Of a DNA stretch of 64,000 nucleotides, positions 1-16,814 are shown one piece after another (the stretch's first letter is position 1; the number at the start of each line of letters is the position of its first letter). Origin of the DNA: Stieleria magnilauensis (GTDB lineage: Bacteria > Planctomycetota > Planctomycetia > Pirellulales > Pirellulaceae); contig CP036432.1 of assembly GCA_007753675.1 (NCBI GenBank), positions 5,740,394 to 5,804,393 of the forward strand, given 5' to 3'. Under the pieces are notes generated by a model. It did not search any database, had not been told where the DNA came from, and was given only the letters and a program-made list of their open reading frames with translations. A program made the position numbers and the translations under genes.

Positions 1-1
1 C

Positions 2-118
2 GGCTACCCGATGCTCGGTGCCGGATTGGCCGGTGGTGATTGGGACACGATCAAGGCGATCATCAGCGCAGAGCTTGATGGAGAAGACCATACGCTCGTT
101 GTCTTCAAGCCTTTGTAA
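2..118 (+). CDS. macro-domain protein, C-terminal end (partial)
   Basis: The window opens inside a reading frame that ends in MLGAGLAGGDWDTI, followed by about 20 more residues to a TAA at 116-118. The glycine-rich loop and the GDW motif are characteristic of the last strand and helix of macro domains that bind or hydrolyse ADP-ribose derivatives (Appr-1''-p / Poa1p-like). Only 38 residues are visible, so the substrate cannot be inferred. Its stop overlaps the 3' end of the convergent phosphatase gene by about 14 bases. A macro domain fits the RNA-repair context of the neighbouring genes, where ADP-ribose phosphates arise as by-products of RNA end healing. Confidence 0.7.
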   Translation, partial: GYPMLGAGLAGGDWDTIKAIISAELDGEDHTLVVFKPL

Positions 119-512
119 TTGCCTCGTCGATGATCGGCTCGGCAGCGCCGCGTATTAGTTCGACCAATTCTGGATCCATGAACTGGTAGTCGTCCGGAAT
201 GTGCAGGACTTTGATGGGCAAGAATTTGGTCTCGCCGGGATAGTCCGCGAGCAATCGATGGCGATGTTTGTCCTCCATCACGAGCACCAGATCTGCCCAA
301 GCGAGATCGACAGCTCGAACGGTCTGCCTCGCAGCCCGCGTGGTTCCTCGAGATCGAACCGACACCCGCGTGTCGTCACGATAGACCGCTTCAGCCGTTG
401 GGCTTCGCCACTGATTCTTGCTGCAGACGAACAGCACGTTGATTCGATTGGTCAACCGTCTGATCCTCGCTAACTTCTTACGACATTGAGACGACGGATC
501 GAAAAGGTCCAA
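105..512 (-). CDS. low-molecular-weight protein tyrosine phosphatase-like protein
   Basis: The product carries the segment VLFVCSKNQWRSPTAEAVY near its N-terminus. This matches the P-loop region of the predicted tyrosine phosphatase group related to LMW-PTP (COG4551 type), although the usual CX5R(S/T) loop is read here as C-SKNQW-RS. The conserved aspartate motif near the end appears as HIPDDYQFMDPEL, and the length of about 110-135 residues is typical. The longest frame starts at a TTG at 512; a second TTG at 455, just before the first beta strand, gives a start closer to family length. Phosphatases of the wider superfamily recur next to ARPP-type and ADP-ribose genes in RNA-repair islands, so a role in end healing is possible but not shown. 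Confidence 0.7.
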   Translation of the reverse strand: MDLFDPSSQCRKKLARIRRLTNRINVLFVCSKNQWRSPTAEAVYRDDTRVSVRSRGTTRAARQTVRAVDLAWADLVLVMEDKHRHRLLADYPGETKFLPIKVLHIPDDYQFMDPELVELIRGAAEPIIDEAITKA

Positions 513-583
513 GAAACCTGCGTTCCGGCGACCAGTCGGTGATTGCGAAAATAGCGTCGGTGAAATCAGTCATAAAATCATCC

Positions 584-2957
584 CTATTGCTCGACTGGTT
601 CGATCACACAGATGAATTCACCGACCACTCGGATGTCGTCCGTCTGCTCACTGAATATTTCAATTGGCTGGAAATCCTTATTGAGCGGCTGGAGCTGAAT
701 CGTCTGATGTTGCCAACCATCTTCGGTTGTTTGCTTGACGGAATGATATCGCTTGACGACATACCGGCCGCCGTCTTCTGGATCGGTCTGCGTGTTGACT
801 TGAACAAGTAGCAATCGTCCTTCGCGGGAACCGGCTGGGCAGGGACGAAAGCAGGTGGATGATCCGCTGAGCAAAGATGCGGTGATTGCCAACGAAGTCA
901 ATCACCAACAAACGACTCTTCCCTTCACTGGCACGCAGGCCGCGCCCCAGCTGTTGAAGAAAGATGACCTTTGACTCGGTCGGTCGTAGCATTACGACGC
1001 GATCCACCGCCGGGATGTCGAGTCCTTCATTGAACATGTCGACGACACATAACGCCTGCAAGTTGCCGGTCCGAAGACGCTCAAGGGAGTCGCCGTAGGG
1101 ATCGCTCCCATCGCCAGAAAAAACCGCCGCTGCGGAGACGCCGTGTGACGCAAGCCAGTCTCTCGCAAATACTGCGTGCCGGCGCGAACAGCAAAACAAT
1201 AATGTTCGATCGGCAGGGTGTTTTTCCATGGTCGACCACAGCCGATCCATCCGTTCGCTGCGGGCAACTCGCTGCTCCAGTTCGGCAAGGTCAAATCGTC
1301 CGTTTCGCCAAGGGATCTGCCGGAAGTCGACCGTGTCTTTGATGCCAACATAGTGGAAGGGAACGAGAGCCTCCTCGGCGATTCCTTCACCAATGCTGGC
1401 GTGATAAGCCAAGTTGTCATCAAAGATGGTCGCAACGTCGACGCCGTCAGTACGTTCTGGGGTCGCTGTCAAACCAAGTGCAAAGTCACAGTCAAGCTTC
1501 GCGAGCACGCGGCGGTAACTTGGTGCCTGGGCGTGATGCACCTCATCCATGATCACGTAGTCAAAGTGTTGCTCGGCGAGTCGCTGAACCCCTTCCGGCC
1601 GGGAGAGTTTCTGAATCGACGCGACCACTAGTTCACTGGACAGATCACTTTGATTGCCGATGTACCAAGCGGTTGAGCTGGACTCGAATCGATGATCGAG
1701 CAGACGCGAGAGGACCGCTTCGGCCTGGGCAAGAATATGAGCCCGATGGGCAATGATCAGAACCCTTGGGCGTCGCCCGATTTCCTCTCCGAACTGGCAA
1801 GCGTCGAAAGCTGCTAACCACGTTTTGCCCATTCCTGTTGCCACCGCGACCAACGCCCGGCTGTGGCCCGCCTCTCGAACACGCGCCAACGAAGCCAAGG
1901 CATCGACTTGCCAAGGCCGCGGATCAGGGATTTCTTGAACATCGTCAGCCTCCGGAAGGAAATGCTTCTGACGATACTTCGCAGCTGACTCTGCGTAGGA
2001 CTCGACAAGCGCCGCCGTCAATGGCGAAGCGACCTGCCATAGCGAGTCGAATGCCGCAGAGAATTGAAGGTGAGACGGTTCAGAAGTTGTGGAGGCCGAC
2101 AACAGATTCCATTCAACACCGCTGACCAGCGCAGCTTTCGACAGGTTGCTACTTCCGACGGAAATAAAGTCGCGAGACCCCTCGATAATCCGCCACGCCT
2201 TGGGGTGAAACGACTCCGGTTCAGTCGGAAGCTTCGCCGTCTCGATTAGTCGAACTTGCAACCGTTCGTTGTCAAACTCCTCCGCCGCCAGCTCACACCA
2301 ACCGACCAACGTCCGAAGTGCTTTCGGGGCGGAAATATAAAGATAGTCGCTTACAAGGATTCGTACTCGAGCTCCACTCCGCAGCGCCTCGAACAGTTGT
2401 TCTTCGATGACCGCAAGCCCCGATGACTGAACGAACGACGCCAGTGCGTCAACGGCGTGGGCGCCTGCAATCCTCCACGACAGTTGTTCCCACAGCGGCG
2501 AGTGAGGGTATCCGACGCTCAAGGTGGGCGCAAATTTCGCGTTTCCGCCCGCCGGTTCGGCGGGAGCGTCCTTCAAGTAATTCCCCTCCCTAGGAATCAC
2601 ATGTCGAACACCACCCCGTGGGTCATCCACATCGCCTGTGTATCTCGGAATCACATGGATGTGGAGATGAGGGACAGTTTGACCCGCCGCATCACCAGCA
2701 TTGAAGCCGACGTTGTACCCATCAGGTTTCGGCTGCAGAGTTTCGTCAAGCTTTCGTTTGACGACGTTAACGAGATCCATTAACGCAGATTGTTCATCCG
2801 CTGTCGCGTCAAACCAAGTCGGCACGACTCGTCGAGTGATGACCAGTGAGTGCCCGACGCTCACCGGGAAGCCATCGAAAACCGCGAACGCCTGATCGTT
2901 CGAAGCGATCCAGTCCTCTGAAGGTATCTCAAGAAACGGCGAATTCGCCATGCGCAT
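584..2957 (-). pseudogene. HIT - phospholipase D - DEAD/DEAH helicase fusion, 3' part damaged
   Basis: The frame 678-2957 encodes an N-terminal HIT hydrolase domain with the catalytic HLHIHVIP motif. A PLD-like segment follows (HPKAW, then GSSNLS), and then a superfamily 2 helicase core with ATGMGKT (motif I), DEVHH (II), LTATPER (III) and QLGRGLR (VI). Homology stops soon after DFVGNHRIF. The last 55 or so residues are arginine-rich and look out of frame. The alternative frame (584 to about 826) continues with GRYVVKRY and GEFICVIE, which resemble an S24/LexA-type C-terminal domain. I infer that the gene lost its middle-to-C-terminal part and shifted frame near 826-850. The start MRMANSPF at 2957 is preferred over the upstream ATG at 3011. 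Intact relatives are nucleic-acid-processing proteins seen in defence contexts. Confidence 0.65.
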
Positions 2958-3145
2958 CCGAGCTCGCTTGTAAGACGATTGACCGTGATTGTGCAGTGTA
3001 CTTTTCAACAATTATGGAATAGCGACGTTTGAACGTCCACTACACCAGATCCCAAGCGGCGCACTTTACGCGTGTGACGGCCAATGACCGGACGCGTGTC
3101 GCAAGAGAGTGGCCCCTACGATTCCGTCCCGCGGCTTTCATAAAA

Positions 3146-3177
3146 TTACGCCCGCGTTGGATTGCTCCGACGCGGGC
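3146..3177 (-). terminator. intrinsic terminator after the ARPP-1-like gene
   Basis: On the minus strand a GC-rich hairpin (arms GCCCGCGTCGG and CCAACGCGGGC) is followed by a short T-rich stretch, about 30 bases downstream of the stop of the 3208-4272 gene. It separates that gene from the helicase gene. Confidence 0.6.
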
Positions 3178-3207: not shown

Positions 3208-4272
3208 TCAGATCGCGAACGGTTCGGCTCGCGTCCATTCCTGGCTCTTGACGAAGGCACTGGTGGCTGGCAGTGATGCGTAGACGATCTTGTCGCCTTC
3301 GCGGATCACTTGGCCGGTGAAGTGCTCTGAGGTGGCGGTGTCGATGGTCACCTCGGCCCCGACCCGTCGGTCAGACACTGTTTCTTCGTACTGCAAGTCG
3401 AGCGGTTCGCCGAGTAGCTCGCGGACCGTCGAACGCGCTCGTTCGTCTTCTTGCGAAGCGATCTCGGCGATCAACGATTCTAGCTCGTCGAGCGATGCGA
3501 TCTCGACCGGCAATTGGACTCGCGGTGATCGGTCCGGTGGACGGTCTCCGTTTGCCTTTGCTGCTTCAATCGCCAGCGATCCGTAGCACTCGCGAATCAG
3601 GCTTGGCCAGATGCTTTGCCAGTACGCGTGCGACGGCGCCCGCTCGATGCCGACGACGCGGTCGTCGATCAGGACAATCGCTCCGACTTGCCGCGGAACG
3701 CACTCGAACTCGGCGACGAACTCGTCCAGTTCCTTCTTGAATGCCTTTAAGAAATACTCGAGGTGACCTTGGCCGGTCACTCCGAATCGCTGGTTGAACA
3801 CCGAGATGTCGTCCCACAGCTTCTGGTAGTTCTTTTCCGACCGCTTCCGCAGTGCCTGCTCACGCAACGCGTGCGGCAGGATCAGCATTCGGTACGAACC
3901 CTTCTGGATGAATCCACCTTGCGATGCCTGGATGCAGGCCGCGGTGTCGTAGCGGCGATCGCCCGCAGCAGCGACCACGCCGGCGTGCGCCATCGCATGG
4001 TCCTGTGCGTGCTGCTTCACGACATAGCCCGCGTGGCACGGAACGATCATCACTGAATCGCTCGTGTTGCGGAAACCGAGTGTTCCGTAGCTGGTCGTGT
4101 ACACGTCCGCGTCACACTGGACCGGCGAGACAAATCGATCGTCGTTCAAATCGCTGACGAGCGGGATGACCTGCATGTAGCCGACACTTTGCAGTCGGCC
4201 AGCTTCGCATCCGCGCAGGACTTCGCGTACTTCGATGCGCGTGCTTGCGGCCTTCTTTCGCTTACGGAACAT
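3208..4272 (-). CDS. ARPP-1-like (DUF6569-type) protein
   Basis: This 354-residue protein has a central region with VPRQVGAIVLIDDRVVGIER, then an SHAYW...WPSLIRECYGSLAIEA helix. The pattern matches the ARPP-1 family, named for its association with ADP-ribosylglycohydrolases and rhodanese/phosphatase-superfamily proteins in predicted RNA-repair operons. No catalytic residues are established for the family. The N-terminus is basic (FRKRKK) and no signal peptide is seen, so it should be cytoplasmic. The start is supported by AGGAG about 11 bases upstream. It lies downstream of the Ro60 gene on the same strand, separated by about 215 bases of repeats, and upstream of a hairpin terminator. Function is inferred from family and context only. 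Confidence 0.7.
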   Translation of the reverse strand: MFRKRKKAASTRIEVREVLRGCEAGRLQSVGYMQVIPLVSDLNDDRFVSPVQCDADVYTTSYGTLGFRNTSDSVMIVPCHAGYVVKQHAQDHAMAHAGVVAAAGDRRYDTAACIQASQGGFIQKGSYRMLILPHALREQALRKRSEKNYQKLWDDISVFNQRFGVTGQGHLEYFLKAFKKELDEFVAEFECVPRQVGAIVLIDDRVVGIERAPSHAYWQSIWPSLIRECYGSLAIEAAKANGDRPPDRSPRVQLPVEIASLDELESLIAEIASQEDERARSTVRELLGEPLDLQYEETVSDRRVGAEVTIDTATSEHFTGQVIREGDKIVYASLPATSAFVKSQEWTRAEPFAI

Positions 4273-4300: not shown

Positions 4301-4491
4301 GGTAGTGGACGAGGCGACGAGTCCCAGAAGGCGGGATTCGTCGCCTCATCCACTACCGGTGGAAATAAGCTCGCGGACTCGTTGCCTTGTCCGCGACCGA
4401 TGGAATTAAGGTCACGGACTCGTCGCCTCGTCCACTACCGGTGGAATTAAGCGCAAGGACTCGTCGCCTCGTCCACTACTGGTGGAATTAG
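4301..4491. repeat. tandem and inverted copies of a ~40-bp palindromic repeat
   Basis: A unit containing GACTCGTCGCCTCGTCCACT and ending TGGAATTAAG occurs four times with a 40-base period (starting near 4331, 4371, 4411 and 4451). One inverted copy of its core lies at 4301-4324. The inverted pair can form a stable hairpin between the ARPP-1-like gene and the Ro60 gene. I recall the core as a common short extragenic repeat in Rhodopirellula genomes, which makes it more likely a REP-like element than a locus-specific RNA. Copy 4 touches the 3' end of the Ro60 gene. Confidence 0.8.
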
Positions 4492-6104
4492 GCCGCCGGC
4501 AGGTAGCCGGCGACCTTGGTCATTCCCAATAGAGCCGCGACGCCTCGGTCGACGTCGGACTCGATCAACGCCTTCAGCAATCCAAGTCCGATTGCTTCCG
4601 GCTTGCTGACCGGCATCGCAACCACAGAATCGCTCAGCGTGCGAACACCCTGCGACTCGGCTGCGAAAACCGGTGTAAATTGGTGAATCGGGGTTTGAAT
4701 ACCGATTCGACGTACGGCCGCGACCGTTTCGCCGAAGCGTCCGGCCGGCGCGTTTTCGTATCCGTCCGAAAGAACGAATACGACGTCCGGATCCGACTTC
4801 AGCAATCGAACCAGCCCTGCCGCCAACGACGTATCGCCCGACGGTTCAACCAGTTCGTAGCTGTCGGTCGTTCGGCCATCCGACGTAATCGCTACGGCGT
4901 CATCCGCAGTCGCTGACAACACGTCGCGTAGCGCGAGTGCCGTGGCGATCGGACGACGAGCCTGTGTGTCGTGACCGAGCATCGATTGCGATGCGTCGAT
5001 CAGCACACCCACTCGCTCGAACTGCACCGGCAGCCGTGCGGCAGCCGCTTCCGCCTTGTTGCGAAGGGCCTGGCGAATTGCGTCCGTCATGCCCATTTCG
5101 AAAGCATAAACGTACAGCCGAACCGCGTCGTACTTCGTCGGATCAAACTCGACCTCCACACCCGACTGCGCCGCCTTACGCTGAACGGAGATCTTTTGAC
5201 CGGTCGTCAACTGAGACTTCGTCAGTGCGAGCACTTCGGCGCTGGTTCGATCCTTGTGGAATCGGCTTCGCAGGCCTTCCATCGTTTCCGGTGGCAGGAC
5301 TGCTCCGCGATCGAAGTCCGACTTCGCGTCACGGTAAGCCGCCAAACGATCAAGCGTCACGCCTTCTTCGTCACCGAGAACGAAGCGGACGCACTGTTCG
5401 ACATGATCGAACGACCGTGGCGTATGCTTCCAGCTTGCGTTCTTCGATGCGTCGGCAAGCGGTACGCTTACCCCACCGGCGAACCGCGTCACGTTCTGGC
5501 GAACGATCTGTGCTTCCTTCTCGGTACGTGCGTCCGGCGACTTCGCCAACACGCTCCGCAGGATACTCGTCGTTCGTCGCCCCCACGCGTGCGTCAGCGC
5601 GACCCGCAGCTTCTCACGGTACTTGACCGCCCAGAACTCCAGACCGTCGGCACCGAGGATTTCACTCAGGATCAGCCGCCGCGTTCGCGCGTTGTTGACG
5701 CGGTCACGACGTAGCATTCCGAACAACTTCAACATCCGCTGCGTTGGCAGTCCACGGACCAGTTGCGTCATCGCCGCCGCTTCGAACTCGGCCGGTAGGA
5801 TTCCACCGTCGCGAGTCGTCTGCAGCAAACGCCACACTCCGATCTGTCGGCTGTAATCCGTCACGCCCGGCAGCATCAACGCTGCGGTGTAAACGTCACG
5901 ATCGATGTCGAACAGGTCGCGGTGCGCCGCCTCGACCGCCGCGGCTTGTTCTTCACGCGAGTTGTAGAACGTTCCGCGGCCGGTAGCCGTTGCGACCGAG
6001 TCCAGGAATGAACCGAATGCAAGCGGCAGCAATTCACGCTGCGTTTCGGTCAGCCCGAGCGTTTGCTTGCGACCTTCGACTTGCGTTGCGATCAGATTTT
6101 GCAT
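4488..6104 (-). CDS. rsr: TROVE-domain protein (Ro60/Rsr homologue)
   Basis: This is a 538-residue Ro60 orthologue. The N-terminal two thirds is the helical TROVE (HEAT-like) ring, and the C-terminal third is a von Willebrand A domain with an intact MIDAS (VLIDASQSM, a threonine near DTSLAAG, and VFVLSDGYENA). Ro60 proteins bind Y RNAs and misfolded RNAs; in bacteria, Rsr together with Y RNA tethers PNPase or other RNases for structured-RNA decay. The start at 6104 (MQNLIATQVEGRK) is chosen because AAGGAG lies seven bases upstream; the longer frame to 6140 lacks this. A candidate Y RNA sits 55 bases upstream on the same strand, and the tRNA array lies beyond it. The usual rtcB partner is not in the window. 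Confidence 0.95.
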   Translation of the reverse strand: MQNLIATQVEGRKQTLGLTETQRELLPLAFGSFLDSVATATGRGTFYNSREEQAAAVEAAHRDLFDIDRDVYTAALMLPGVTDYSRQIGVWRLLQTTRDGGILPAEFEAAAMTQLVRGLPTQRMLKLFGMLRRDRVNNARTRRLILSEILGADGLEFWAVKYREKLRVALTHAWGRRTTSILRSVLAKSPDARTEKEAQIVRQNVTRFAGGVSVPLADASKNASWKHTPRSFDHVEQCVRFVLGDEEGVTLDRLAAYRDAKSDFDRGAVLPPETMEGLRSRFHKDRTSAEVLALTKSQLTTGQKISVQRKAAQSGVEVEFDPTKYDAVRLYVYAFEMGMTDAIRQALRNKAEAAAARLPVQFERVGVLIDASQSMLGHDTQARRPIATALALRDVLSATADDAVAITSDGRTTDSYELVEPSGDTSLAAGLVRLLKSDPDVVFVLSDGYENAPAGRFGETVAAVRRIGIQTPIHQFTPVFAAESQGVRTLSDSVVAMPVSKPEAIGLGLLKALIESDVDRGVAALLGMTKVAGYLPAA

Positions 6105-10625: not shown

Positions 10626-10697
10626 TACCTCGCCAGGGAGTCGAACCCCGTCTAACGGTTTCGAAGACCGTCGTGCTTTCCATCACACTCGCAAGGC
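10626..10697 (-). tRNA. tRNA-Arg(TCG)
   Basis: Acceptor GCCTTGC/GCGAGGT, anticodon arm ACGGT-CTTCGAA-ACCGT, and T-arm CGGGG/CCCTG. Its 5' end lies eight bases from the start codon of the divergent four-helix-bundle gene. Confidence 0.85.
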
Positions 10698-10705
10698 ATA
10701 TTCCA

Positions 10706-11053: not shown

Positions 11054-11054
11054 A

Positions 11055-11087
11055 TTTCACACTTCACTCTTCTTACTTCAAACTTCC
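11055..11087. repeat. single arm of the GAAGTTTGAAGT element (right end of copy 1)
   Basis: A run of CTTC/ACTTCAAACTTCC heptads begins one base after the stop of copy 1, in the position and sequence of the right end of the intact element at 12414-12446. Confidence 0.8.
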
Positions 11088-11090
11088 ATC

Positions 11091-11142
11091 CGCCTCCTGC
11101 CTCACAGGCAAGTGCGCACAAACCGAGTACACCACGGACACC
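11091..11142 (-). pseudogene. 5' half of a tRNA-His(GTG)-like gene, cut by the element end
   Basis: From 11142 the minus strand shows GGTGTCC (acceptor 5' half), a D-arm-like hairpin, and an anticodon arm CTTGC-CTGTGAG-GCAGG that reads GTG. The sequence then passes straight into the repeat arm at 11087, and the T-arm and 3' acceptor are absent. It is best read as a tRNA truncated by insertion of, or recombination at, the four-helix-bundle element. An apparently complete tRNA-His is at 14520. Confidence 0.5.
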
Positions 11143-11180
11143 GTGTTAAAGCGGCTCCGCAGTGGAAGCGAAGCCGCAGT

Positions 11181-11987: not shown

Positions 11988-11988
11988 T

Positions 11989-12446
11989 GGAAGTTCGAAG
12001 TAAGAAGTTGGAAGTTGGAAAATGAGCAGGTATGCTTTGTTTTTTGATACTCGATGAGGTATGTAATGAAGAGCGATTTGCCCGAACGGACGTTCGCGTT
12101 TGCCGAACGAATTGTTCGACTTTGCCAGTTCCTTGAAAGTGAAGGCATCGTCTCCAGCATATTGATGAAACAGGTGCTTCGCTCAGGAACCGCAATCGGC
12201 TCACACGTCGAGGAAGGTCAGGCAAGCGAGAGCAAGAAGGACTTCATTCACAAGTATTCGCTCGCGCTAAAAGAGGCCCGTGAGACCCACTATTGGCTAC
12301 GCCTTCTCGCAGCCGCCGAGATTGTCCCCCGTGCGAGGCTCGATCCAATCACGCAAGAAGCGAACGAGCTCGTCGCGATCCTAACCACGATATGCAAGAA
12401 GAACCGCGACTAGTTTCGCACTTCAAACTTCTTACTTCAAACTTCC
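11989..12446 (+). mobile_element. 458-bp element: four-helix-bundle gene between 33-bp inverted repeats
   Basis: The left arm (11989-12021) and right arm (12414-12446) are inverted copies; both begin, read inward, with GGAAGTTYGAAGTAAGAAGT. About 80% of positions agree. The arms are themselves built of heptad-like repeats. The gene starts 45 bases inside the left arm and its stop is immediately followed by the right arm. The same arms, without a gene, make the short palindromes scattered through the array. The layout is that of a small mobile element or of a 23S-type intervening sequence outside rRNA. Confidence 0.75.
12066..12413 (+). CDS. four-helix-bundle protein (23S intervening-sequence / bAvd-like), copy 2
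   Basis: This 115-residue protein begins MKSDLPERTFAFAERIVRLCQ and has the same four helices as copy 1. It differs mainly at helix ends (SSILMKQVLRSGTAIGSHVEEGQ). The longer frame from 12054 (MRYVMKSD) is less likely because copy 1 has no such extension. It is the only gene of the 458-bp element and is oriented against the tRNAs. Whether the protein mobilises the element, binds its RNA or protects it is unknown. Confidence 0.85.
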   Translation: MKSDLPERTFAFAERIVRLCQFLESEGIVSSILMKQVLRSGTAIGSHVEEGQASESKKDFIHKYSLALKEARETHYWLRLLAAAEIVPRARLDPITQEANELVAILTTICKKNRD

Positions 12447-12449
12447 AAA

Positions 12450-12525
12450 CGGCCCGACCAGGAATCGAACCCGGAACTTCTGGTTAGAAGCCAGAGATGA
12501 TGTCCGTTTCACCATCGATCCAGGA
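12450..12525 (-). tRNA. tRNA-Arg(TCT), mismatched acceptor
   Basis: D-arm GATG/CATC, anticodon arm TCTGG-CTTCTAA-CCAGA and T-arm CCGGG/CCTGG are sound. The acceptor halves TCCTGGA and TCGGGCC pair at only about four of seven positions. The 3' end lies four bases from the right end of element 2. Confidence 0.72.
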
Positions 12526-12530
12526 TGAGC

Positions 12531-12611
12531 TGGTTAGCAGTTAGCTTGTTAGCAATTAGCTCTCTTCGGCTTTGCTAGTTACTGATTCGCTAACGGCTAA
12601 TTCGCGACTAA
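12531..12611. repeat. palindromic element, GCTAACGGCTAAT family
   Basis: Repeats of TTAGC/GTTAGCA on one side face GCTAACGGCTAATTCGC on the other across a short loop. Same architecture as the GAAGTTT family but unrelated sequence. Lies between tRNA-Arg(TCT) and tRNA-Ser(GCT). Confidence 0.8.
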
Positions 12612-12615
12612 AAAG

Positions 12616-12702
12616 CGGAAGGCATGGGATTCGAACCCACATGACTCAGGAAGTCGCACGGTTTAGCAAACCGGCCCGGCAAGCCGTATCCGGCTACCTT
12701 CC
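12616..12702 (-). tRNA. tRNA-Ser(GCT)
   Basis: Acceptor GGAAGGT/GCCTTCC with G73, anticodon arm CGGTT-TGCTAAA core reading GCT, and a long variable arm, as expected of a class II tRNA. Confidence 0.9.
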
Positions 12703-12712
12703 GAAAATTGAG

Positions 12713-12778
12713 TGGACCGCAAGGGAATCGAACCCTTCTCATCGATCTTGCAAGGATCTGTCACCCACAGAGTCTATT
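12713..12778 (-). tRNA. degenerate tRNA-Ala-like gene (TGC)
   Basis: T-arm AAGGG-TTCGATT-CCCTT and anticodon loop CTTGCAA in a GATC/GATC stem are clear. The 5' acceptor half does not pair with the 3' half GCGGTCC at all and the D-arm is irregular. A normal tRNA-Ala(TGC) exists at 13683. Confidence 0.4.
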
Positions 12779-12802
12779 TCTCGGCGAACATTCCAGCCCT
12801 CG

Positions 12803-12885
12803 TGAAGTTTGAAGTAAGAAGGATGAAGTTTGAAATTGGTGCACATTCAGATTTTCAAACTTCGAACTTCCCACTTCAAACTTCC
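12803..12885. repeat. palindromic element, GAAGTTTGAAGT family
   Basis: Arms of about 33 bases facing each other across a ~17-base loop, between the Ala-like and Val(GAC) tRNAs. Confidence 0.85.
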
Positions 12886-12891
12886 GAAACG

Positions 12892-12964
12892 TGATCACGG
12901 ATGGAATCGAACCATCGGTCTCCTGCTTGTCACGCAGGCGTCTTAGCCGCTGGACCACGCGATC
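12892..12964 (-). tRNA. tRNA-Val(GAC)
   Basis: Acceptor GATCGCG/CGTGATC, anticodon arm CCTGC-GTGACAA-GCAGG, T-arm GATGG/CCATC. Confidence 0.88.
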
Positions 12965-12976
12965 GTTTTGCACAAG

Positions 12977-13058
12977 TAGTCGAGACAGGAGTCGAACCGG
13001 CAAAATCGATTTGAAAAACCTCTCATGCTTGCCGCTTTGCCTGTTTGCGTACTCGACC
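12977..13058 (-). tRNA. tRNA-Leu(GAG)
   Basis: Acceptor GGTCGAG/CTCGACT. The anticodon loop ATGAGAG is closed by a weak stem (CAAGC with GTTTT) and a long AT-rich variable region follows. Body similar to tRNA-Leu(CAA) at 13352. The weak anticodon stem lowers confidence. Confidence 0.65.
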
Positions 13059-13065
13059 TTAGAAG

Positions 13066-13134
13066 TAGCGGATCCGGGGGTCGCACCCGGCGGTCCTGGC
13101 TTATGAGGCCTGGCTGAGCACTGGCCCATCCGCG
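13066..13134 (-). tRNA. tRNA-Met-type (CAT), copy 1
   Basis: Anticodon arm CAGGC-CTCATAA-GCCAG and T-arm CCGGG-TGCGACC-CCCGG. Position 1 is C and unpaired with 72, as in initiator tRNAs, but the anticodon stem lacks three G-C pairs. CAT could be initiator, elongator or lysidine-modified Ile. The D-loop is atypical. Confidence 0.72.
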
Positions 13135-13151
13135 TTGTTGTTGCATCGAAG

Positions 13152-13219
13152 TAGCGGGTTCGGGGGTCGCACCCGACGGTCCAGGCTTATGAGGCCCGGA
13201 TGAGCCTGGCTCACCCGCA
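13152..13219 (-). tRNA. tRNA-Met-type (CAT), copy 2
   Basis: Anticodon arm CGGGC-CTCATAA-GCCTG, T-arm TCGGG-TGCGACC-CCCGA, acceptor TGCGGGT/ACCCGCT with an unpaired first position. A close paralogue of copy 1, with the same unusual TGCGACC T-loop. Confidence 0.72.
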
Positions 13220-13241
13220 TTGTTGTTTCACTTTGAAGAAG

Positions 13242-13341
13242 TAGCCATGGCGAGAATTGAACTCGCACGCCGCACCATCTTCTCGGATTCTGTGCACGAC
13301 AGTCTGGTGTCCGCGTGTCTCGCAGGTTCCACCACTTGGAA
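13242..13341 (-). tRNA. tRNA-Leu-like (probable CAG), atypical
   Basis: The D-arm region (GTGGTGGAA...GAGACACGC) is Leu-like and the T-arm GCGAG-TTCAATT-CTCGC is intact. The anticodon hairpin GACA-CCAGAC-TGTC closes on a 6-base loop containing CAG. The acceptor halves (TTCCAAG, CATGGCT) pair at only four of seven positions. A variable arm is present. Confidence 0.5.
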
Positions 13342-13351
13342 GTCATGAAAG

Positions 13352-13430
13352 TAGCGCGGGAGGGAATCGAACCCACAGACATGTCACGGAGGTTTGAGCT
13401 CCGCCGCTTTACCGGTTTGCGTACCGCGCC
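13352..13430 (-). tRNA. tRNA-Leu(CAA)
   Basis: Acceptor GGCGCGG/CCGCGCT, D-stem CGC/GCG, anticodon arm CGGAG-CTCAAAC-CTCCG, variable region of about ten bases, T-loop TTCGATT. Confidence 0.85.
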
Positions 13431-13446
13431 GTTTAGATTGAAAAAG

Positions 13447-13519
13447 CGTCCCCGATCGGATTTGAACCGACGACCTCTTGCGTGACAGGCAAGCGAGCAC
13501 TCCGCTGCTCCACGAGGAC
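13447..13519 (-). tRNA. tRNA-Asp(GTC)
   Basis: Acceptor GTCCTCG/CGGGGAC, D-arm GAGC/GCTC, anticodon arm CTTGC-CTGTCAC-GCAAG, T-arm GTCGG/CCGAT, G73. Confidence 0.9.
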
Positions 13520-13523
13520 GTTT

Positions 13524-13589
13524 GGAAGTTTGAAGTGAAAAGTATGAAGTGTGAAATTTCAAACTTCGAACTTCACCCTTCAAACTTCC
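13524..13589. repeat. palindromic element, GAAGTTTGAAGT family
   Basis: Short version (66 bases) with two facing arms, between tRNA-Asp and tRNA-Leu(TAG). Confidence 0.85.
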
Positions 13590-13592
13590 GAA

Positions 13593-13666
13593 TAGCTCGA
13601 GTGGGATTCGAACCCACAGCATCTCTGGTTCTAAGCCAAAGTGGTCTTCCGGTTGCCTACCGAGCC
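13593..13666 (-). tRNA. tRNA-Leu(TAG), short variable loop
   Basis: Acceptor GGCTCGG/TCGAGCT, anticodon arm TTTGG-CTTAGAA-CCAGA. The variable region is only about five bases, unusual for a bacterial tRNA-Leu. Confidence 0.82.
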
Positions 13667-13682
13667 GTTTGTTTGAACTGAG

Positions 13683-13753
13683 TGGAGCACCAGGGAATCG
13701 AACCCTGATCTTCTGCTTGCAACACAGACGTCTTCCCGTTGGACGAGCGCCCC
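13683..13753 (-). tRNA. tRNA-Ala(TGC)
   Basis: Acceptor GGGGCGC/GTGCTCC, anticodon arm TCTGT-GTTGCAA-GCAGA, T-arm CAGGG/CCCTG. Confidence 0.88.
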
Positions 13754-13818
13754 ATATGTTTTGTGTTTGAAGAGGTCTTTGCTTCGTTGCTGGTTCGCCT
13801 CTTTCAAAATGTTTTCAG

Positions 13819-13892
13819 TACCCAGAGCAGGGATCGAACCTGCAAACACTCGGGTTTAAGCCGAGTCGCTCTGCCGATTGGCGTACCTGGGC
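13819..13892 (-). tRNA. tRNA-Leu(TAA), short variable loop
   Basis: Acceptor GCCCAGG/TCTGGGT, anticodon stem ACTCGG/CCGAGT around CTTAAAC, T-arm GCAGG/CCTGC. Class I-like variable loop. Confidence 0.83.
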
Positions 13893-13899
13893 ATGTAAG

Positions 13900-13971
13900 T
13901 AGCCCCGGATGGAATCGAACCATCGTTTCCTGCGTGTAAAACAGGTGTCGTAGCCGTTGGACCACAGGACC
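13900..13971 (-). tRNA. tRNA-Val(TAC)
   Basis: Acceptor GGTCCTG/CGGGGCT, anticodon arm CCTGT-TTTACAC-GCAGG, T-arm GATGG/CCATC. Confidence 0.87.
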
Positions 13972-13974
13972 GGC

Positions 13975-14054
13975 GGAAGTTTGAAGCAAGAAGTTCGAAG
14001 TGTGAAAACGTGCTCCGGGAAATTTCAAACTTCACCCTTCTTCCTTCGAACTTC
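13975..14054. repeat. palindromic element, GAAGTTTGAAGT family
   Basis: Two facing arms between tRNA-Val(TAC) and the D-armless tRNA-Ser. The left arm starts four bases from the tRNA 5' end. Confidence 0.85.
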
Positions 14055-14094
14055 AAAATGCCTCCCGTGTGGAAACGCTCCCAAGTTGTTTAAG

Positions 14095-14160
14095 CGGAAG
14101 CCGTGGGACTCGAACCCACAACGGTTTGACCCGCAGCTGTTTTCAAGCTGTACATCTTCC
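14095..14160 (-). tRNA. tRNA-Ser-like, D-arm missing (TGA-type loop)
   Basis: Acceptor GGAAGAT/GGCTTCC with G73 matches tRNA-Ser(GCT) of the array, the T-arm GTGGG/CCCAC is intact and a long variable hairpin (CGG/CCG) is present. The acceptor runs after only a few bases into the anticodon hairpin CAGCT/AGCTG, so the D-arm is absent. The loop TGAAAAC is one base out of register with the expected CTTGAAA. Confidence 0.5.
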
Positions 14161-14231
14161 GCTCGCTCTCGCCTTACTCCTCCCTAATCGGTCGGCGGCC
14201 GAGCGAGCGGTCCGGCCGGGAGCTTCCAGGA

Positions 14232-14320
14232 ATAGCGAGTTAGCGTTTAGTGGGTTAGCGGTTAGCAGAATCCCATCTCCAAAAGCTAATCGCTAATTGG
14301 CTAACAGCCAATAAGCTAGC
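14232..14320. repeat. palindromic element, GCTAACGGCTAAT family
   Basis: GTTAGCG repeats on the left face CTAATCGCTAATTGGCTAAC on the right. Between the Ser-like and Glu tRNAs. Confidence 0.8.
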
Positions 14321-14324
14321 CAAG

Positions 14325-14399
14325 TGACGTGGGCGGGAATCGAACCCGCGGACTCCTGGATGAAAACCAGACGATTCTGCCATCAGAATCTACCACGCC
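14325..14399 (-). tRNA. tRNA-Glu(TTC)
   Basis: Acceptor GGCGTGG/CCACGTC, anticodon arm TCTGG-TTTTCAT-CCAGG, T-arm GCGGG/CCCGC, D-stem ATTC/GAAT. Confidence 0.88.
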
Positions 14400-14403
14400 A
14401 AAT

Positions 14404-14482
14404 GAAGCTTGAAGTAAGAAGGGCAAAATGTAAGAAGGTTCGGGTTCCTTATTCAAACTTCACCCTTCACTCTTCAAACTTC
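14404..14482. repeat. palindromic element, GAAGTTTGAAGT family
   Basis: Two facing arms, between tRNA-Glu and the tRNA fragment at 14487. Confidence 0.8.
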
Positions 14483-14486
14483 TGAA

Positions 14487-14511
14487 CGCCTAGCCAGTAG
14501 TCGAATGCGGC
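14487..14511 (-). pseudogene. 3' tRNA fragment (T-arm and acceptor remnant)
   Basis: A poorly paired T-arm with TTCGACT, followed by an acceptor-like CTAGGCG, has no 5' part. It abuts the repeat at 14404-14482. Confidence 0.4.
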
Positions 14512-14519
14512 TTGACAAG

Positions 14520-14595
14520 GGTGACCAACCGGAATTGAACCGGCGACAAACTCATTCACAGTGAGTCTCTGGAAACCAGCACCAGATCTGGCCAC
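14520..14595 (-). tRNA. tRNA-His(GTG)
   Basis: Acceptor GTGGCCA/TGGTCAC with C73, anticodon arm ACTCA-CTGTGAA-TGAGT, T-arm GCCGG-TTCAATT-CCGGT. Confidence 0.87.
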
Positions 14596-14597
14596 AG

Positions 14598-14668
14598 TCG
14601 GGTATCAGTGAGTCGCACACTGTCCATGCGTGGTCCCAAACCACACCGCTTACTCCAAGCTATACCCG
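14598..14668 (-). tRNA. tRNA-Pro(TGG)
   Basis: Acceptor CGGGTAT/ATACCCG, D-stem GCTT/AAGC, anticodon arm TGTGG-TTTGGGA-CCACG. The T-loop TGCGACT departs from the TTC consensus, as in the two CAT tRNAs. It starts three bases from tRNA-His. Confidence 0.83.
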
Positions 14669-14683
14669 AAAATATTCAACAAG

Positions 14684-14758
14684 CGCCGAGGACAGGAATC
14701 GAACCTGTGTTTGCCTGATTCAGAGTCAGGTGCAACGACCAGCAGTTGCCGCCTCGGT
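14684..14758 (-). tRNA. tRNA-Gln(CTG)
   Basis: Acceptor ACCGAGG/CCTCGGC (first pair A-C), D-stem GCAAC/GTTGC, anticodon arm CCTGA-CTCTGAA-TCAGG, T-arm ACAGG/CCTGT, G73. Confidence 0.87.
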
Positions 14759-14762
14759 GTTT

Positions 14763-14795
14763 GGAAGTTTGAAGTCAGAAGTGTGAAGTTTGAAA
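14763..14795. repeat. left arm of GAAGTTTGAAGT element flanking tRNA-Gln(TTG)
   Basis: This single arm matches the left end of element 2 and is paired with the inverted arm at 14888-14921. The intact tRNA-Gln(TTG) lies between them. Confidence 0.8.
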
Positions 14796-14796
14796 G

Positions 14797-14868
14797 CACG
14801 GGTGGCAGGATTCGAACCTGCATACCACTGCTTCAAAGGCAGCTGACTTACCGTTAGCCAACACCCGA
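14797..14868 (-). tRNA. tRNA-Gln(TTG), enclosed by inverted element arms
   Basis: Acceptor TCGGGTG/CACCCGT with a weak first pair, anticodon arm GCTGC-CTTTGAA-GCAGT, T-arm GCAGG/CCTGC. Flanked at one and nineteen bases by the two inverted repeat arms. Confidence 0.86.
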
Positions 14869-14887
14869 ATGTTGCGCATCGTTCTCT

Positions 14888-14921
14888 TCTTCTTACTTCA
14901 AACTTCACCCTTCAAACTTCC
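14888..14921. repeat. right arm of GAAGTTTGAAGT element flanking tRNA-Gln(TTG)
   Basis: Inverted counterpart of the arm at 14763-14795. Confidence 0.8.
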
Positions 14922-14927
14922 GAAAGG

Positions 14928-14999
14928 CTCCGGTGGATGGGCTCGAACCATCAATCGTCTCCTTAACAGGGAGCCGCCTTACCATTGGGCCACACCGGA
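14928..14999 (-). tRNA. tRNA-Asn(GTT)
   Basis: Acceptor TCCGGTG/CACCGGA, D-stem GCC/GGC, anticodon core CTCC-CTGTTAA-GGAG, T-arm GATGG/CCATC, G73. Confidence 0.88.
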
Positions 15000-15007
15000 G
15001 TATCAGC

Positions 15008-15092
15008 CTTGAGTCACGAGTCTCGAGCTTTGAGGGCAAGAACAGTTACGTCGCTCACTCACGACTCAAGTCTCATCCCTCATGACTCCTCA
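15008..15092. repeat. palindromic element, GAGTCACGAGTC family
   Basis: GAGTCACGAGTCTCGAG-type repeats face CTCACGACTCAAGTCTC and CTCATGACTC. This is a third sequence family with the same arms-and-loop design as the other two, between tRNA-Asn and the tRNA at 15094. Confidence 0.75.
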
Positions 15093-15093
15093 G

Positions 15094-15167
15094 TCAGGAT
15101 GGCTGGATTTGAACCAGCGATCTCGTGTTTCCGGAACACGCGGAGTGCCAGACTTTCCCACACCCTG
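15094..15167 (-). tRNA. tRNA, anticodon CGG by strict counting (Pro); Arg(CCG) possible
   Basis: Acceptor CAGGGTG/CATCCTG and T-arm GCTGG-TTCAAAT-CCAGC are sound. The anticodon arm CGTGT-TCCGGAA-ACACG has five pairs and reads CGG, but position 33 is C rather than T. If the loop is shifted by one it reads CCG. Confidence 0.6.
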
Positions 15168-15176
15168 ATGACAAAG

Positions 15177-15247
15177 AGCGCCCAGTGGGAGTCGAACCCA
15201 CACTTCCGCCATGGCAAGGCAGCAGGCTACCGCTACATCATGGGCGC
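15177..15247 (-). tRNA. tRNA-Gly(GCC)
   Basis: Perfect acceptor GCGCCCA/TGGGCGC with T73, anticodon arm CTGCC-TTGCCAT-GGCGG, T-arm GTGGG/CCCAC. Confidence 0.9.
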
Positions 15248-15282
15248 AAAATTGCATCACAACCAAATTGTCAAAGAACGAT

Positions 15283-15356
15283 GGAAGTTGAAGTGTGAAG
15301 GATGAAAACCCGCGTTTGGCAGGCTTCACACTTCGAACTTCCGACTTCTAACTTCC
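15283..15356. repeat. palindromic element, GAAGTTTGAAGT family
   Basis: Two facing arms between tRNA-Gly and tRNA-Lys(CTT). Confidence 0.82.
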
Positions 15357-15362
15357 GAAAGG

Positions 15363-15435
15363 TGGGACCGGTGAGAATCGAACTCACATCGTTCGGTTTA
15401 AGAGACCGATGCATTACCTTGTCTGCCACAATCCC
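15363..15435 (-). tRNA. tRNA-Lys(CTT)
   Basis: Acceptor GGGATTG/CGGTCCC, anticodon arm TCGGT-CTCTTAA-ACCGA, T-arm GTGAG/CTCAC. Confidence 0.88.
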
Positions 15436-15469
15436 AAATTGTTTCATTCTTGTCGTTGTTTCGTTTCAG

Positions 15470-15543
15470 TCGGCGTGGCGGGAATTGAACCCGCGCTCTG
15501 TCGCCTTATAAGGACGCCGCTCTCACCCCTGAGCTACACGCCG
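15470..15543 (-). tRNA. tRNA-Ile(TAT)
   Basis: Perfect acceptor CGGCGTG/CACGCCG, D-arm GCTC/GAGC, anticodon loop CTTATAA, T-arm GCGGG/CCCGC. A genuine TAT tRNA reading AUA is uncommon in bacteria, most of which use lysidine-modified CAT. Confidence 0.85.
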
Positions 15544-15552
15544 TGGTAGCGA

Positions 15553-15649
15553 TGGGGCCGGAGGGATTTGAACCCTCACCTACACGACGACCAACGCGTC
15601 CTGCGTCGGTGCCCGAAGTCCGTATAGCTGCCAGTTACACCACAACCCC
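15553..15649 (-). tRNA. tRNA with long variable arm, isotype unresolved
   Basis: Acceptor GGGGTTG/CGGCCCC and T-arm GAGGG-TTCAAAT-CCCTC are good and the D-loop has the usual GG. The anticodon region (CGG-ACTTCGGGCA-CCG) closes on a 10-base loop; TTCGGGC suggests Pro(CGG) and CTTCGGG suggests TCG. A long hairpin (CGACG/CGTCG) follows as variable arm or insertion. Confidence 0.5.
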
Positions 15650-15686
15650 GAATGTTGGTTGGGCGTATATGTTTCAAACAGTTCTC

Positions 15687-15722
15687 CATTTCCAACTTCT
15701 CCCTTCTCACTTCAAACTTCCA
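15687..15722. repeat. single arm of the GAAGTTTGAAGT element
   Basis: Only the right-hand arm (CTTC/ACTTCAAACTTCC heptads) is recognisable, next to tRNA-Ile(GAT). Confidence 0.7.
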
Positions 15723-15725
15723 AAG

Positions 15726-15797
15726 TGGTAGCCCCGAGGATCGAACTCAGCGCGACCCGCGTATCAGGCGGATTTGGGCGACCAGCCCTCGACTACC
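15726..15797 (-). tRNA. tRNA-Ile(GAT)
   Basis: Acceptor GGTAGTC/GGCTACC, D-arm GGGC/GCCC with a short loop, anticodon arm TCCGC-CTGATAC-GCGGG, T-arm CTGAG/CTCGG. Confidence 0.85.
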
Positions 15798-15799
15798 TC

Positions 15800-15876
15800 A
15801 ATAGCGATAAGCTCCTAGCGATTGGCCACTAGCTTTCCTGTTCTTGCTGACAGCTAATCGCTAACGGCTATCAGCT
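15800..15876. repeat. palindromic element, GCTAACGGCTAAT family
   Basis: TAGCGATAAGCTCCTAGCGA on the left faces CTAATCGCTAACGGCTATCA on the right. Between tRNA-Ile(GAT) and tRNA-Phe. Confidence 0.78.
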
Positions 15877-15884
15877 ACTCCCAG

Positions 15885-15971
15885 TGGGCCGGGGAGGCGC
15901 TCGAATCCTCGTCTGCGGTGCTTCAAACCGCCGCGCTGTAACGATTGTCGGGGCATCTCAGCTACCAGCCC
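15885..15971 (-). tRNA. tRNA-Phe(GAA) with enlarged D-loop
   Basis: Acceptor GGGCTGG/CCGGCCC, anticodon arm GCGGT-TTGAAGC-ACCGC. The D-stem GCTG/CAGC encloses about 20 bases instead of 8-10, and the T-arm has an oversized loop around ATTCGAGC. It is the first tRNA of the array in transcription order. Confidence 0.6.
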
Positions 15972-16013
15972 AAATTGGGTTCGTTTTTGGGTTGCCCGTT
16001 CGATGCGGGCACG

Positions 16014-16048
16014 AAAAAAGGCCCGATGTCTGCGTGACATCGGGCCTT
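16014..16048 (-). terminator. strong intrinsic terminator ahead of the tRNA array
   Basis: On the minus strand a 10-bp perfect stem (GGCCCGATGT/ACATCGGGCC) is followed by TTTTTT, 43 bases before tRNA-Phe. It would stop transcription entering from the phosphatase side and insulate the array, which therefore needs its own promoter in a very short space or inside the array. No clear -35/-10 pair is visible. Confidence 0.8.
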
Positions 16049-16350
16049 GATGAAAGGCGCTTCGAGAGAAGCAGATGTCACATGCGCAAACGATACGCGG
16101 GGGCATTACCATTCAACGGTTGCCCGCCGAAGAAATTGCCTTCGTGTATCCGTTCGAGTCGACTTGATTGGAATTCCGATAACATGGAACGTTCTGCTCG
16201 CTTGTGAGGCGGTGAATGGTTGTGTTCAGAGGGAAAGACGCAAAACTACATTCAGGGTTCGCGAAAAAACTCGCTCGAACATAACTACGATGCGCAAGCC
16301 CCTGATTCTATTTCACTAAACGCCGTAAAACCAAAGAAATACTCGCCACG
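16049..16350. other. gene-free stretch
   Basis: I see no coding frame, tRNA or strong palindrome here. It probably holds remnants and the promoter region of whatever preceded the CoA-binding fragment. Confidence 0.5.
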
Positions 16351-16539
16351 ATGAACTCAATCGAAAAACTTCTCGCTGCAAACACGCACGCCGTCGCCGA
16401 TGCGAACGCCGAAGGCGTGAAGAACATCTGGATGCAACCTGGAGCCGAAGAACCGCAGGCCAGCCAGTCTGCTCGCGAGGCCGGAATCAACGTCATCGAC
16501 GTTGGAGCGTGCGTTCCGGTGTGCCAAGCCCGCGAGTGA
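16351..16539 (+). pseudogene. CoA-binding (YccU-type) protein, C-terminal fragment
   Basis: The segment EGVKNIWMQPGAEEPQASQSAREAGINVIDVGACV matches the end of the CoA_binding_2 family (about 140 residues), where IWMQ-GAE and a late Cys are typical. The first 20 residues (MNSIEKLLAANTHAVADANA) do not belong to that family, so this is a chimeric remnant after deletion of the first two thirds. Confidence 0.55.
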
Positions 16540-16547
16540 CTGCCGTC

Positions 16548-16814
16548 TTAGCCCTTCCAGTCGAGAATGAAGGATTCCTGATCTTTGTTTTCGGGAGCCG
16601 GCCAACTCGCTCTTTCATGATCGGCTTGGCGAAGCGTTGTCAAAGCGGACAGCACATCATTCTTGTTCGCCAGACCGTGCCGGAGCAACCAACAGCAGAT
16701 CGTTGTCCCCGTCCGCCCCATCCCGCCGAAGCAATGGACATAGACTGGCTCACCGGCATCAAGGGACAGGTCGATGGCGTCAAGAATAGACCGCATACGG
16801 TCCGTCGTCGTCAC
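16548..16814 (-). pseudogene. dual-specificity/tyrosine phosphatase, C-terminal half
   Basis: The 88-residue frame holds the catalytic P-loop VHCFGGMGRTGT and the following WLLRHG helix of the planctomycete/cyanobacterial tyrosine-phosphatase family, whose members are about 170-190 residues. The N-terminal half, with the general-acid aspartate, is missing. Upstream, the same frame runs into the end of the sulfatase gene (its stop is at 16844), so acquisition of the sulfatase segment probably removed the N-terminal half. Start given is a GTG. Phosphatases of this superfamily are one of the gene types that gave ARPP proteins their name. Confidence 0.65.

Follow-up and report, generated by a model that had tools for sequence, protein, structure and literature searches.

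Whether the tRNA gene arrays of bacterial chromosomes serve codon supply, serve anti-defence or are simply junk is debated, and the locus described here raises the question anew. The window, i.e., the whole 64,000-nucleotide stretch that was analysed, is part of the 10.77-Mb single-contig genome of Stieleria magnilauensis and carries a tRNA array (array 1) in which genes for an endonuclease V homologue (EndoV), a slipin and a 268-residue protein (P268) stand between the tRNAs, followed by genes for a Ro60-like protein and ARPP-1. Is this clustering accidental, as an earlier note on this DNA allowed if related genomes did not share it, or is it a system, and when would it be switched on? We looked for conservation of the neighbourhood in relatives and found it: the array with slipin, EndoV and P268, in some strains joined by Ro60-ARPP-1, is, to judge from the sequences compared, a recurring unit and not an accident. 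Upstream lies a conserved leader with the predicted features of a transcription attenuator. Our preferred reading, to which we give a probability of about 60%, takes the island to be an integrated reserve of tRNAs combined with RNA quality control, under an attenuator that would respond to translation failure. Conservation, architecture and selection are read in the sequences themselves; from these we infer that the array is switched, that its tRNAs refill the pool and that Ro60 and Y RNA sort damaged RNA.

The tRNA genes were called with ARAGORN, with Rfam as a second scorer, and tRNA-like intervals were located by BLAST against the array tRNAs of relatives. The window has 25 ARAGORN tRNAs between positions 6307 and 15797, all on the minus strand, of which 20 pass Rfam, and 34 tRNA-like intervals (both totals include the module of a Y RNA, discussed below); since the intervals outnumber the called genes, some of them are remnants. 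A better-kept copy, array 2 (33 tRNAs, G000:C1:6008092-6012475), lies 0.25 Mb away in the same genome with an anticodon order largely collinear with that of array 1, whose order is also homologous in the arrays of relatives. As in known tRNA array units, the genes are dense and redundant with a complete housekeeping set, which outside the arrays amounts to 43 distinct tRNA sequences with 40 anticodons, covering all 20 amino acids. For the comparison we used 117 genomes (this one and 116 relatives) and, besides the Ro60-bearing loci, 20 further array regions picked by DNA similarity. P268 lies inside 12 of these regions, the slipin inside eight and EndoV inside five, at corresponding positions in the tRNA order, which bears out the earlier claim that these three genes sit between tRNAs. 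The shared order runs ...Ser-Arg(tct)-P268-His-Thr-Arg(tcg)-slipin-Arg(gcg)-EndoV-Cys, with single tRNAs absent or relocated in some arrays. The recurrence of anticodons, and of the order in which they stand, extends over 30 arrays. On the 3' side of Cys, a 162-aa protein is found in 9 of the 20 regions and a longer slipin in four other arrays, so that Ro60-ARPP-1 is one among several alternative 3' modules; its inclusion as a part of the system, made in the earlier note, stands for those strains in which it adjoins an array. Ro60 was found in none of the 20 regions, several of which stop at contig ends. One of them, L153, represents only the 5' part of an array that is interrupted; Ro60 is on the 3' part, L029.

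The array's function becomes directly testable because the predicted attenuator in the leader says when the array should switch on. The region upstream of the first array tRNA (Phe) is conserved, and what is new here is its predicted composition: an extracytoplasmic function (ECF)-like promoter, a short open reading frame (ORF) with its stop codon in an antiterminator helix (P1), and a 13-bp terminator (Table 1). The promoter motif GAAC-N16-CGTCT resembles the promoters of ECF sigma factors. Among 18 leaders its spacing is N17 in one (G092) and the motif was not found in three; GAAC-N15..17-CGTCT stands upstream of 56 of 72 leader matches (N13-19 allowed), against 1.1% of mononucleotide shuffles. 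The leader ORF has mostly 31-46 codons across arrays and its TGA lies inside the 5' strand of P1 (GTGACAC), the 3' strand of which (GTGTCAC) lies within the terminator's 5' arm. The predicted structures thus have the arrangement of a ribosome-mediated attenuator, in which a leader ORF overlaps competing antiterminator and terminator. In an alignment of 18 arrays the terminator is paired in 234 of 234 cells, P1 in 98.6% and the second inner hairpin in 91.1%; the first inner hairpin occupies different alignment columns in different groups, its register being shifted. The terminator of the window has the longest stem among 18 terminator-like sites in 3000-16900, the number of such sites being itself at chance.

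A model of this switch, built from 18 sequences and 97 positions long, ends before the tRNAs and includes no tRNA sequence. It has 73 matches in 50 of the 117 genomes. A tRNA follows within 600 nt in 64 of the 72 located matches, mostly 16-110 nt away, and 63 of the 72 have at least three tRNAs within 5 kb; of the matches that were not used in training, 46 of 54 lie upstream of tRNAs. Many of the arrays that follow a leader comprise 20-40 genes, and a minority of them have Y RNA, Ro60 and ARPP-1 at the 3' end. In the 10.77-Mb genome itself the model matches the two arrays only (E ≤ 0.01). All 65 matches that bear GTGA keep the leader frame open over 25 codons or more, compared with 30 and 16 for the other two frames, and in 64 of the 65 an ATG ORF of at least 25 codons ends at P1. 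No residue dominates the leader peptide as a run of regulatory codons would, and Val is nearly absent. An interpretation of the peptide as an amino-acid sampler was not relied on, the excess of distinct residues being weak (64 related peptides, mean z 0.72). As for the trigger, for which the earlier note gave a phage-triggered anticodon nuclease as an example, the leader suggests a general failure of translation.

In the preferred reading, full translation of the leader ORF would bring the ribosome to a stop within P1, the antiterminator would be blocked, the terminator would form and the array would stay off. When translation fails, with tRNAs cleaved or uncharged and ribosomes stalled or absent, P1 would form, the terminator could not, and the tRNAs and proteins would be transcribed. 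The array tRNAs, many of them with anticodon loops unlike those of the housekeeping set, would then refill the tRNA pool, and Ro60, Y RNA and ARPP-1 might sort or process damaged RNA. More tentatively, at somewhat less than even odds, we would extend this to a general translation-failure switch for exchanging the whole tRNA pool of a cell, in which any block in translation of the leader peptide would release a near-complete, loop-altered tRNA set, packaged with P268 as a new family of tRNA-linked proteins, with EndoV beside an inosine-free tRNA-Arg(GCG) and with a Ro60/Y RNA/ARPP-1 salvage unit, as a kit partly common to planctomycetes, Deltaproteobacteria and large phages.

Table 1. Features of the island in the window; positions are those of the window, and all features lie on the minus strand.
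Feature	Positions	Strand	Remarks
Predicted ECF-sigma-type promoter, GAAC-N16-CGTCT	16236..16260	-	N16 in 14 of 18 leaders, including that of the window
Leader ORF, 35 codons, MLSEFQSSRLERIHEGNFFGGQPLNGNAPAYRLRM	16078..16185	-	Stop codon within predicted antiterminator helix P1
Antiterminator (predicted by folding)	16034..16081	-	P1: GTGACATC (16081-16074) with GATGTCAC (16041-16034), two small hairpins enclosed
Intrinsic terminator (predicted), 13 bp, then T run	16018..16048	-	5' arm overlaps P1
tRNA array 1	6404..15934	-	24 ARAGORN tRNAs and 33 tRNA-like intervals (BLAST), Y RNA module excluded
P268 (268 residues)	11181..11987	-	Family without known relative; array-embedded; also in IMG/VR contigs
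ISAs1-family insertion sequence	9039..10202	-	Inside array 1; damage, outside the system
Slipin/Band_7 protein	8189..9049	-	Between tRNA-Arg(tcg) and tRNA-Arg(gcg)
Endonuclease V homologue	7308..7895	-	Between tRNA-Arg(gcg) and tRNA-Cys
194-aa protein (putative HD)	6691..7275	-	In G013 (L190) an orthologue adjoins EndoV; G001 (L138) has fragments
Y RNA with tRNA-like module	6284..6401	-	Module 6307-6381, ARAGORN label tRNA-Lys; 155 bits
Ro60-like protein	4488..6104	-	TROVE + VWA, intact MIDAS residues; orthologues beside arrays
ARPP-1	3208..4272	-	PF20208, 3.8e-38

The last "tRNA" before Ro60 deserves a separate comment. The earlier note had its listed genes together around more than 30 tRNA-like genes, and the array was confirmed; the gene adjoining Ro60, by contrast, is on comparative evidence the tRNA-like module of a Y RNA and not a tRNA-Lys, because its anticodon drifts and its outer stem covaries. 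The sequence is near-identical in close relatives, yet the anticodon varies between TTT, CTT and ATG, with CGT, AAG and ACG in more distant loci and CAT, ACG and TTA in viral contigs. The flanks of the module pair as an outer stem, and RNAalifold on 14 sequences predicted 32 pairs, 22 of them with at least one compensated two-sided change. Such a tRNA-like module, enclosed by an outer stem and next to Ro60, corresponds to the architecture of bacterial Y RNAs (YrlA). When the 117 genomes were searched with a covariance model of the 14 sequences, eight matches scored 106-155 bits, every one of them adjoining Ro60 in the seven genomes that bear it; the best match not beside Ro60, among the matches listed for these genomes, scored 70.9 bits. 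Of the 58 Ro60 loci outside the training set, 13 have a match better than 70.9 bits on the upstream side of Ro60; these loci belong to Bacteroidota, a Desulfobacterales metagenome-assembled genome (MAG) and viral contigs, and the remaining ones have weaker matches or none. The gathering cut-off of Rfam YrlA was not reached. At 6152-6270 of the window, in the interval from the Y RNA to Ro60, there is another Y RNA-like match of lower score (44 bits), and similar second matches are present in L058, L059 and L061.

The Ro60 identity of the neighbouring protein, also proposed earlier, was upheld by structure comparison: its predicted model matches Ro60 structures over ca. 400 residues, with the TROVE helical repeat and the von Willebrand factor A (VWA) fold. 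Searches of Pfam, NCBIfam and PDB sequences gave no Ro60 match, and 0 of 11 homologues matched Pfam TROVE at E ≤ 1. Residues D370, S372, S374, T425 and D447, invariant in the 11 sequences, correspond to the metal ion-dependent adhesion site (MIDAS) motif. Among the 116 relatives, six have a close Ro60 orthologue (67% identity or more), in all six with ARPP-1 just downstream and in five with array tRNAs just upstream, the Y RNA module excluded (one has only a tRNA-Cys in reach); the contig of the sixth, G060, starts 2.1 kb before Ro60 and only Y RNAs are visible. We kept 80 of the 215 Ro60 relatives found in named genomes and counted their tRNA neighbours, leaving out any gene that coincides with a match to the Y RNA model. 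At least two tRNAs besides the Y RNA modules were present in 9 of 22 loci of the close Ro60 clade vs. 2 of 58 of the distant one (Fisher p 8e-5; 11 of 22 and p 3.8e-6 with raw ARAGORN genes), and the 9 of 22 may be an undercount because many close-clade contigs end near Ro60. Among the nine are Deltaproteobacteria MAGs with 20 and 25 ARAGORN genes. ARPP-1 belongs to the Ro60 locus in 21 of the 22 close bacterial and 53 of the 56 viral cases. The leader model was also run on 44 further loci; of the Ro60 loci among them, L058-L079, only four matched at E ≤ 0.01, namely L058, L063, L065 and, weakly (0.0092), L064. All four are planctomycete or unassigned, and the genomes of L058 and L065 had supplied training sequences; in L064 the weak match is followed by two Y RNAs and Ro60, with no array tRNAs.

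Among the embedded proteins, P268 stands for a family that has no known relative. Its model has a predicted local distance difference test (pLDDT) score of 93.5, and comparison of this model gave no confident PDB fold match and one BFVD match (E 3.4e-5), to a protein of unnamed function; nothing was obtained in Pfam, NCBIfam, PHROG or PADLOC searches, and it was absent from the INPHARED phages and PLSDB plasmids searched. The ratio of nonsynonymous to synonymous substitution rates (dN/dS) of P268 is 0.06-0.09 in nine of ten pairs, the tenth being saturated, and for the array-embedded proteins compared with close relatives it is 0.06-0.11, i.e., they are under purifying selection. Of 20 loci whose P268 is at least 62% identical, 19 have two or more tRNAs near it, vs. 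4 of 14 below 62%. EndoV was identified by its sequence family (Pfam PF04493); among nine regions with homologues at ca. 39-53% identity, eight have no tRNA and one a single tRNA. At 7308-8117 of the window EndoV adjoins tRNA-Arg(gcg), and 26 array tRNAs are Arg(gcg) vs. the housekeeping Arg(acg). The latter is presumably inosine-modified, and action of EndoV on the host tRNA-Arg(ICG) is a testable idea. The 194-aa protein, previously called HD, gave no relevant family in the family searches.

Are the array tRNAs functional? Taking the array of G010 as reference, we counted compensated and uncompensated double changes in the stems, which were 38/2 for array 2, 22/2 for G008, 12/1 for G002 and 6/3 for G004; tRNA genes were more alike than the spacers in all eight comparisons. 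Together with the attenuator-like leader and the purifying selection, the compensatory changes in these better-kept arrays favour the tRNA-reserve role that had been proposed; it is the list of its parts that had to be corrected.

Several observations weigh against this interpretation. Covariation within the switch is thin because switch sequences vary little: two-sided changes are limited to one pair per structure, a number equalled in 384/500 and 156/500 shuffles. Eight of the 72 located switch matches have no near downstream tRNA (one of them at a contig end), and seven have no GTGA at P1. Rfam on seven leader exceptions found three tRNAs in L273 and two sub-threshold YrlA matches in L260 (G116), located at 1383-1460 and 1761-1834 after a leader match with no tRNAs downstream. 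The leader ORF has an in-frame ratio of nonsynonymous to synonymous polymorphism (pN/pS) of 0.73, with third positions not enriched; its coding role rests on frame preservation because codon-level constraint is weak, and much of the peptide sequence may matter little. Ro60 (at least 67% identity) is present in 7 of the 117 genomes vs. the leader in 50, so that it has to be considered optional. Compensated/uncompensated changes relative to G010 were 35/11 for G026, 30/14 for G001 and 30/21 for G011, in which misalignment may inflate the disrupted pairs. Array 1 itself, with 46 compensated, 28 disrupted double and 64 disrupted one-sided changes, is decaying, as these many disrupted stem changes indicate; with the ISAs1-family insertion, they agree with the damage already described for this strain. 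Four of five array Leu isoacceptors have no long variable arm (for Leu taa the median length is 75 nt vs. 87 in the housekeeping gene) and may charge poorly, and the differences in anticodon loops may reflect foreign origin. Finally, planctomycete clusters were called degenerate and possibly dispensable in 2016, in the accessible part of that report (PMC4807772).

The rival that survives best, unlikely as we consider it, is that of an anti-defence module derived from a phage or another element, whose tRNAs resist host anticodon nucleases and serve the mobile element instead of the cell, and which decays as a chromosomal passenger. Evasion by phage tRNAs has been proposed (PMC10264068, as far as its accessible text goes), and the tRNAs themselves could be read in this way: across 30 arrays with 789 tRNAs the commonest anticodon loop is unlike the housekeeping loop of the S. 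magnilauensis genome in 20 of 29 isoacceptors (the same in nine) and sometimes fixed, e.g., CTGTGAA in 30 of 30 array His tRNAs vs. TTGTGGT in the housekeeping gene. These loops and the Leu arms fit nuclease evasion, foreign origin, or both. The location of array 2 close to a serine recombinase and a TraG-like gene is a further point, and so are the IMG/VR contigs, whose viral status is as assigned by the collection. We obtained 56 IMG/VR loci with Ro60 relatives (some contigs near-duplicates; 42 scanned for Y RNAs), nearly all with ARPP-1 as mentioned above; 45 have at least one ARAGORN tRNA-like gene, 39 after dropping recognised Y RNA matches, and eight have at least three tRNAs besides recognised Y RNAs, one of them 37. 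P268 relatives are found in 20 IMG/VR loci, 11 of these with tRNAs, and P268 is carried also by two of the Ro60 loci. These shared modules suggest exchange with large phages, and Ro60-ARPP-1 in viral contigs, some of them tRNA-rich, suggests that phages use the same kind of kit. However, orthologous arrays of similar order persist family-wide, with proteins under purifying selection and a conserved leader, and the leader model, applied to 13 of the 20 viral P268 loci, had no match at E ≤ 1, a scan that did not extend to the viral Ro60 loci.

It is very improbable, in our opinion, that the array acts as a decoy, yielding tRNA-like RNAs that saturate tRNA-cleaving enzymes or Ro60 with no decoding: the short variable arms of the Leu tRNAs and the Y RNA mimicry at the array end would suit it, but a decoy has no need of a near-complete decoding set, nor of anticodons and an order that recur in 30 arrays. 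Very improbable, too, is the notion of degenerate remains, i.e., horizontally acquired tRNA clusters devoid of present function in a hotspot where genes accumulate, which the disrupted stems of array 1, the insertion sequence and four-helix-bundle ORFs in its gaps and the published view of the planctomycete clusters would favour, but which has to face the stems kept by compensation in other arrays, protein dN/dS of ca. 0.1 and a leader in 50 genomes.

How does the island compare with known systems? tRNA arrays, their link to mobile elements and the planctomycete clusters were already known (accessible parts of PMC5966550, PMC12803027, PMC4807772), and the last are very probably the same clusters, described with no mention, in the accessible text, of embedded proteins, Ro60 or a leader. 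The trn operon on the delta plasmid of Anabaena sp. PCC 7120 is also an array, of 26 tRNAs, that exists besides the housekeeping set, is silent and is induced by translational stress; however, it is controlled by the repressor TrcR and not, as predicted here, by a leader attenuator, and the accessible portion of its description mentions no embedded P268, slipin, EndoV, Ro60 or Y RNA (PMC10272220). Array units of mycobacteria, their plasmids and their phages are comparable in having 26-27 tRNAs that duplicate chromosomal ones and altered anticodon domains; they are mobile and have a putative anti-defence role, but their embedded genes differ (HNH, RF-1 and Pth), and a leader attenuator is not mentioned in the available parts of the reports (PMC12803027, PMC5966550). 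Attenuation of transcription linked to a leader peptide precedes the mef/mel and bmrCD operons, according to the portions available (PMC4335068, PMC4191407), whereas the attenuator predicted here precedes a tRNA array. With Ro60/Y RNA (YrlA) ribonucleoproteins and predicted RNA-repair systems there is similarity in the Ro60 fold, the tRNA-like Y RNA directly upstream and the ADP-ribose-linked ARPP-1 downstream; the differences are the position at the end of a tRNA array and a Y RNA under the Rfam YrlA cut-off. Jumbo phages are known to carry tRNAs, and a small number of them also encode TROVE proteins, but the accessible text mentions neither a Ro60-ARPP-1 pairing nor P268 (PMC7824862). Our literature search found no report of the leader attenuator, P268 or this interleaving; key RNA-repair and tRNA-array papers that lay outside the search may mention Ro60 with tRNA genes. 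Through the recurring P268, slipin and EndoV and the unit of Y RNA, Ro60 and ARPP-1, tRNA arrays are linked with RNA quality control.

As for the surroundings, array 2 lies 1.3 kb from the serine recombinase, with the TraG-like gene near (L010 5285-6775, L009 9377-11854) and, by eye, ParA/ParB-looking ORFs, which suggests an integrated conjugative element; at array 1 there is only the ISAs1 copy. Four-helix-bundle proteins (TIGR02436) are encoded on the plus strand in gaps of array 1 (10673-11053 and 12054-12413), and homologues occupy gaps in several other arrays. The tRNA-Ile(tat) at 15469-15543 has the second-best Rfam score of the array (61 bits); tRNA-Ile(tat) was singled out as horizontally acquired in Planctomycetes (PMC4807772, accessible part). 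The macro, phosphatase (LMWPc and DSP) and HIT-PLD-helicase genes, counted as parts in the earlier note, turned out to be flanking genes outside the conserved unit, being no recurrent array partners in the 20 regions; single occurrences are a low-molecular-weight phosphatase at 83% that flanks the array of L146, a short match to DSP where L143 ends and a macro gene near the Ro60 array of L030. The HIT-PLD-helicase fusion (678-3011 of the window) resembles PADLOC type IV restriction profiles, and a HIT-helicase with a macro gene stands beside Ro60-ARPP-1 once among the viral loci, in L302. To the left of the window (L011 12234-18512) there is a row of genes for an RNase T-type exonuclease, a microbial poly(ADP-ribose) glycohydrolase (PARG), two RlaP RNA-repair nucleotidyltransferases, a macro-domain protein and, by eye, an EF-Tu-like protein. 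RlaP copies flank the arrays of L138, L146 and L153 as well, there on the 5' side.

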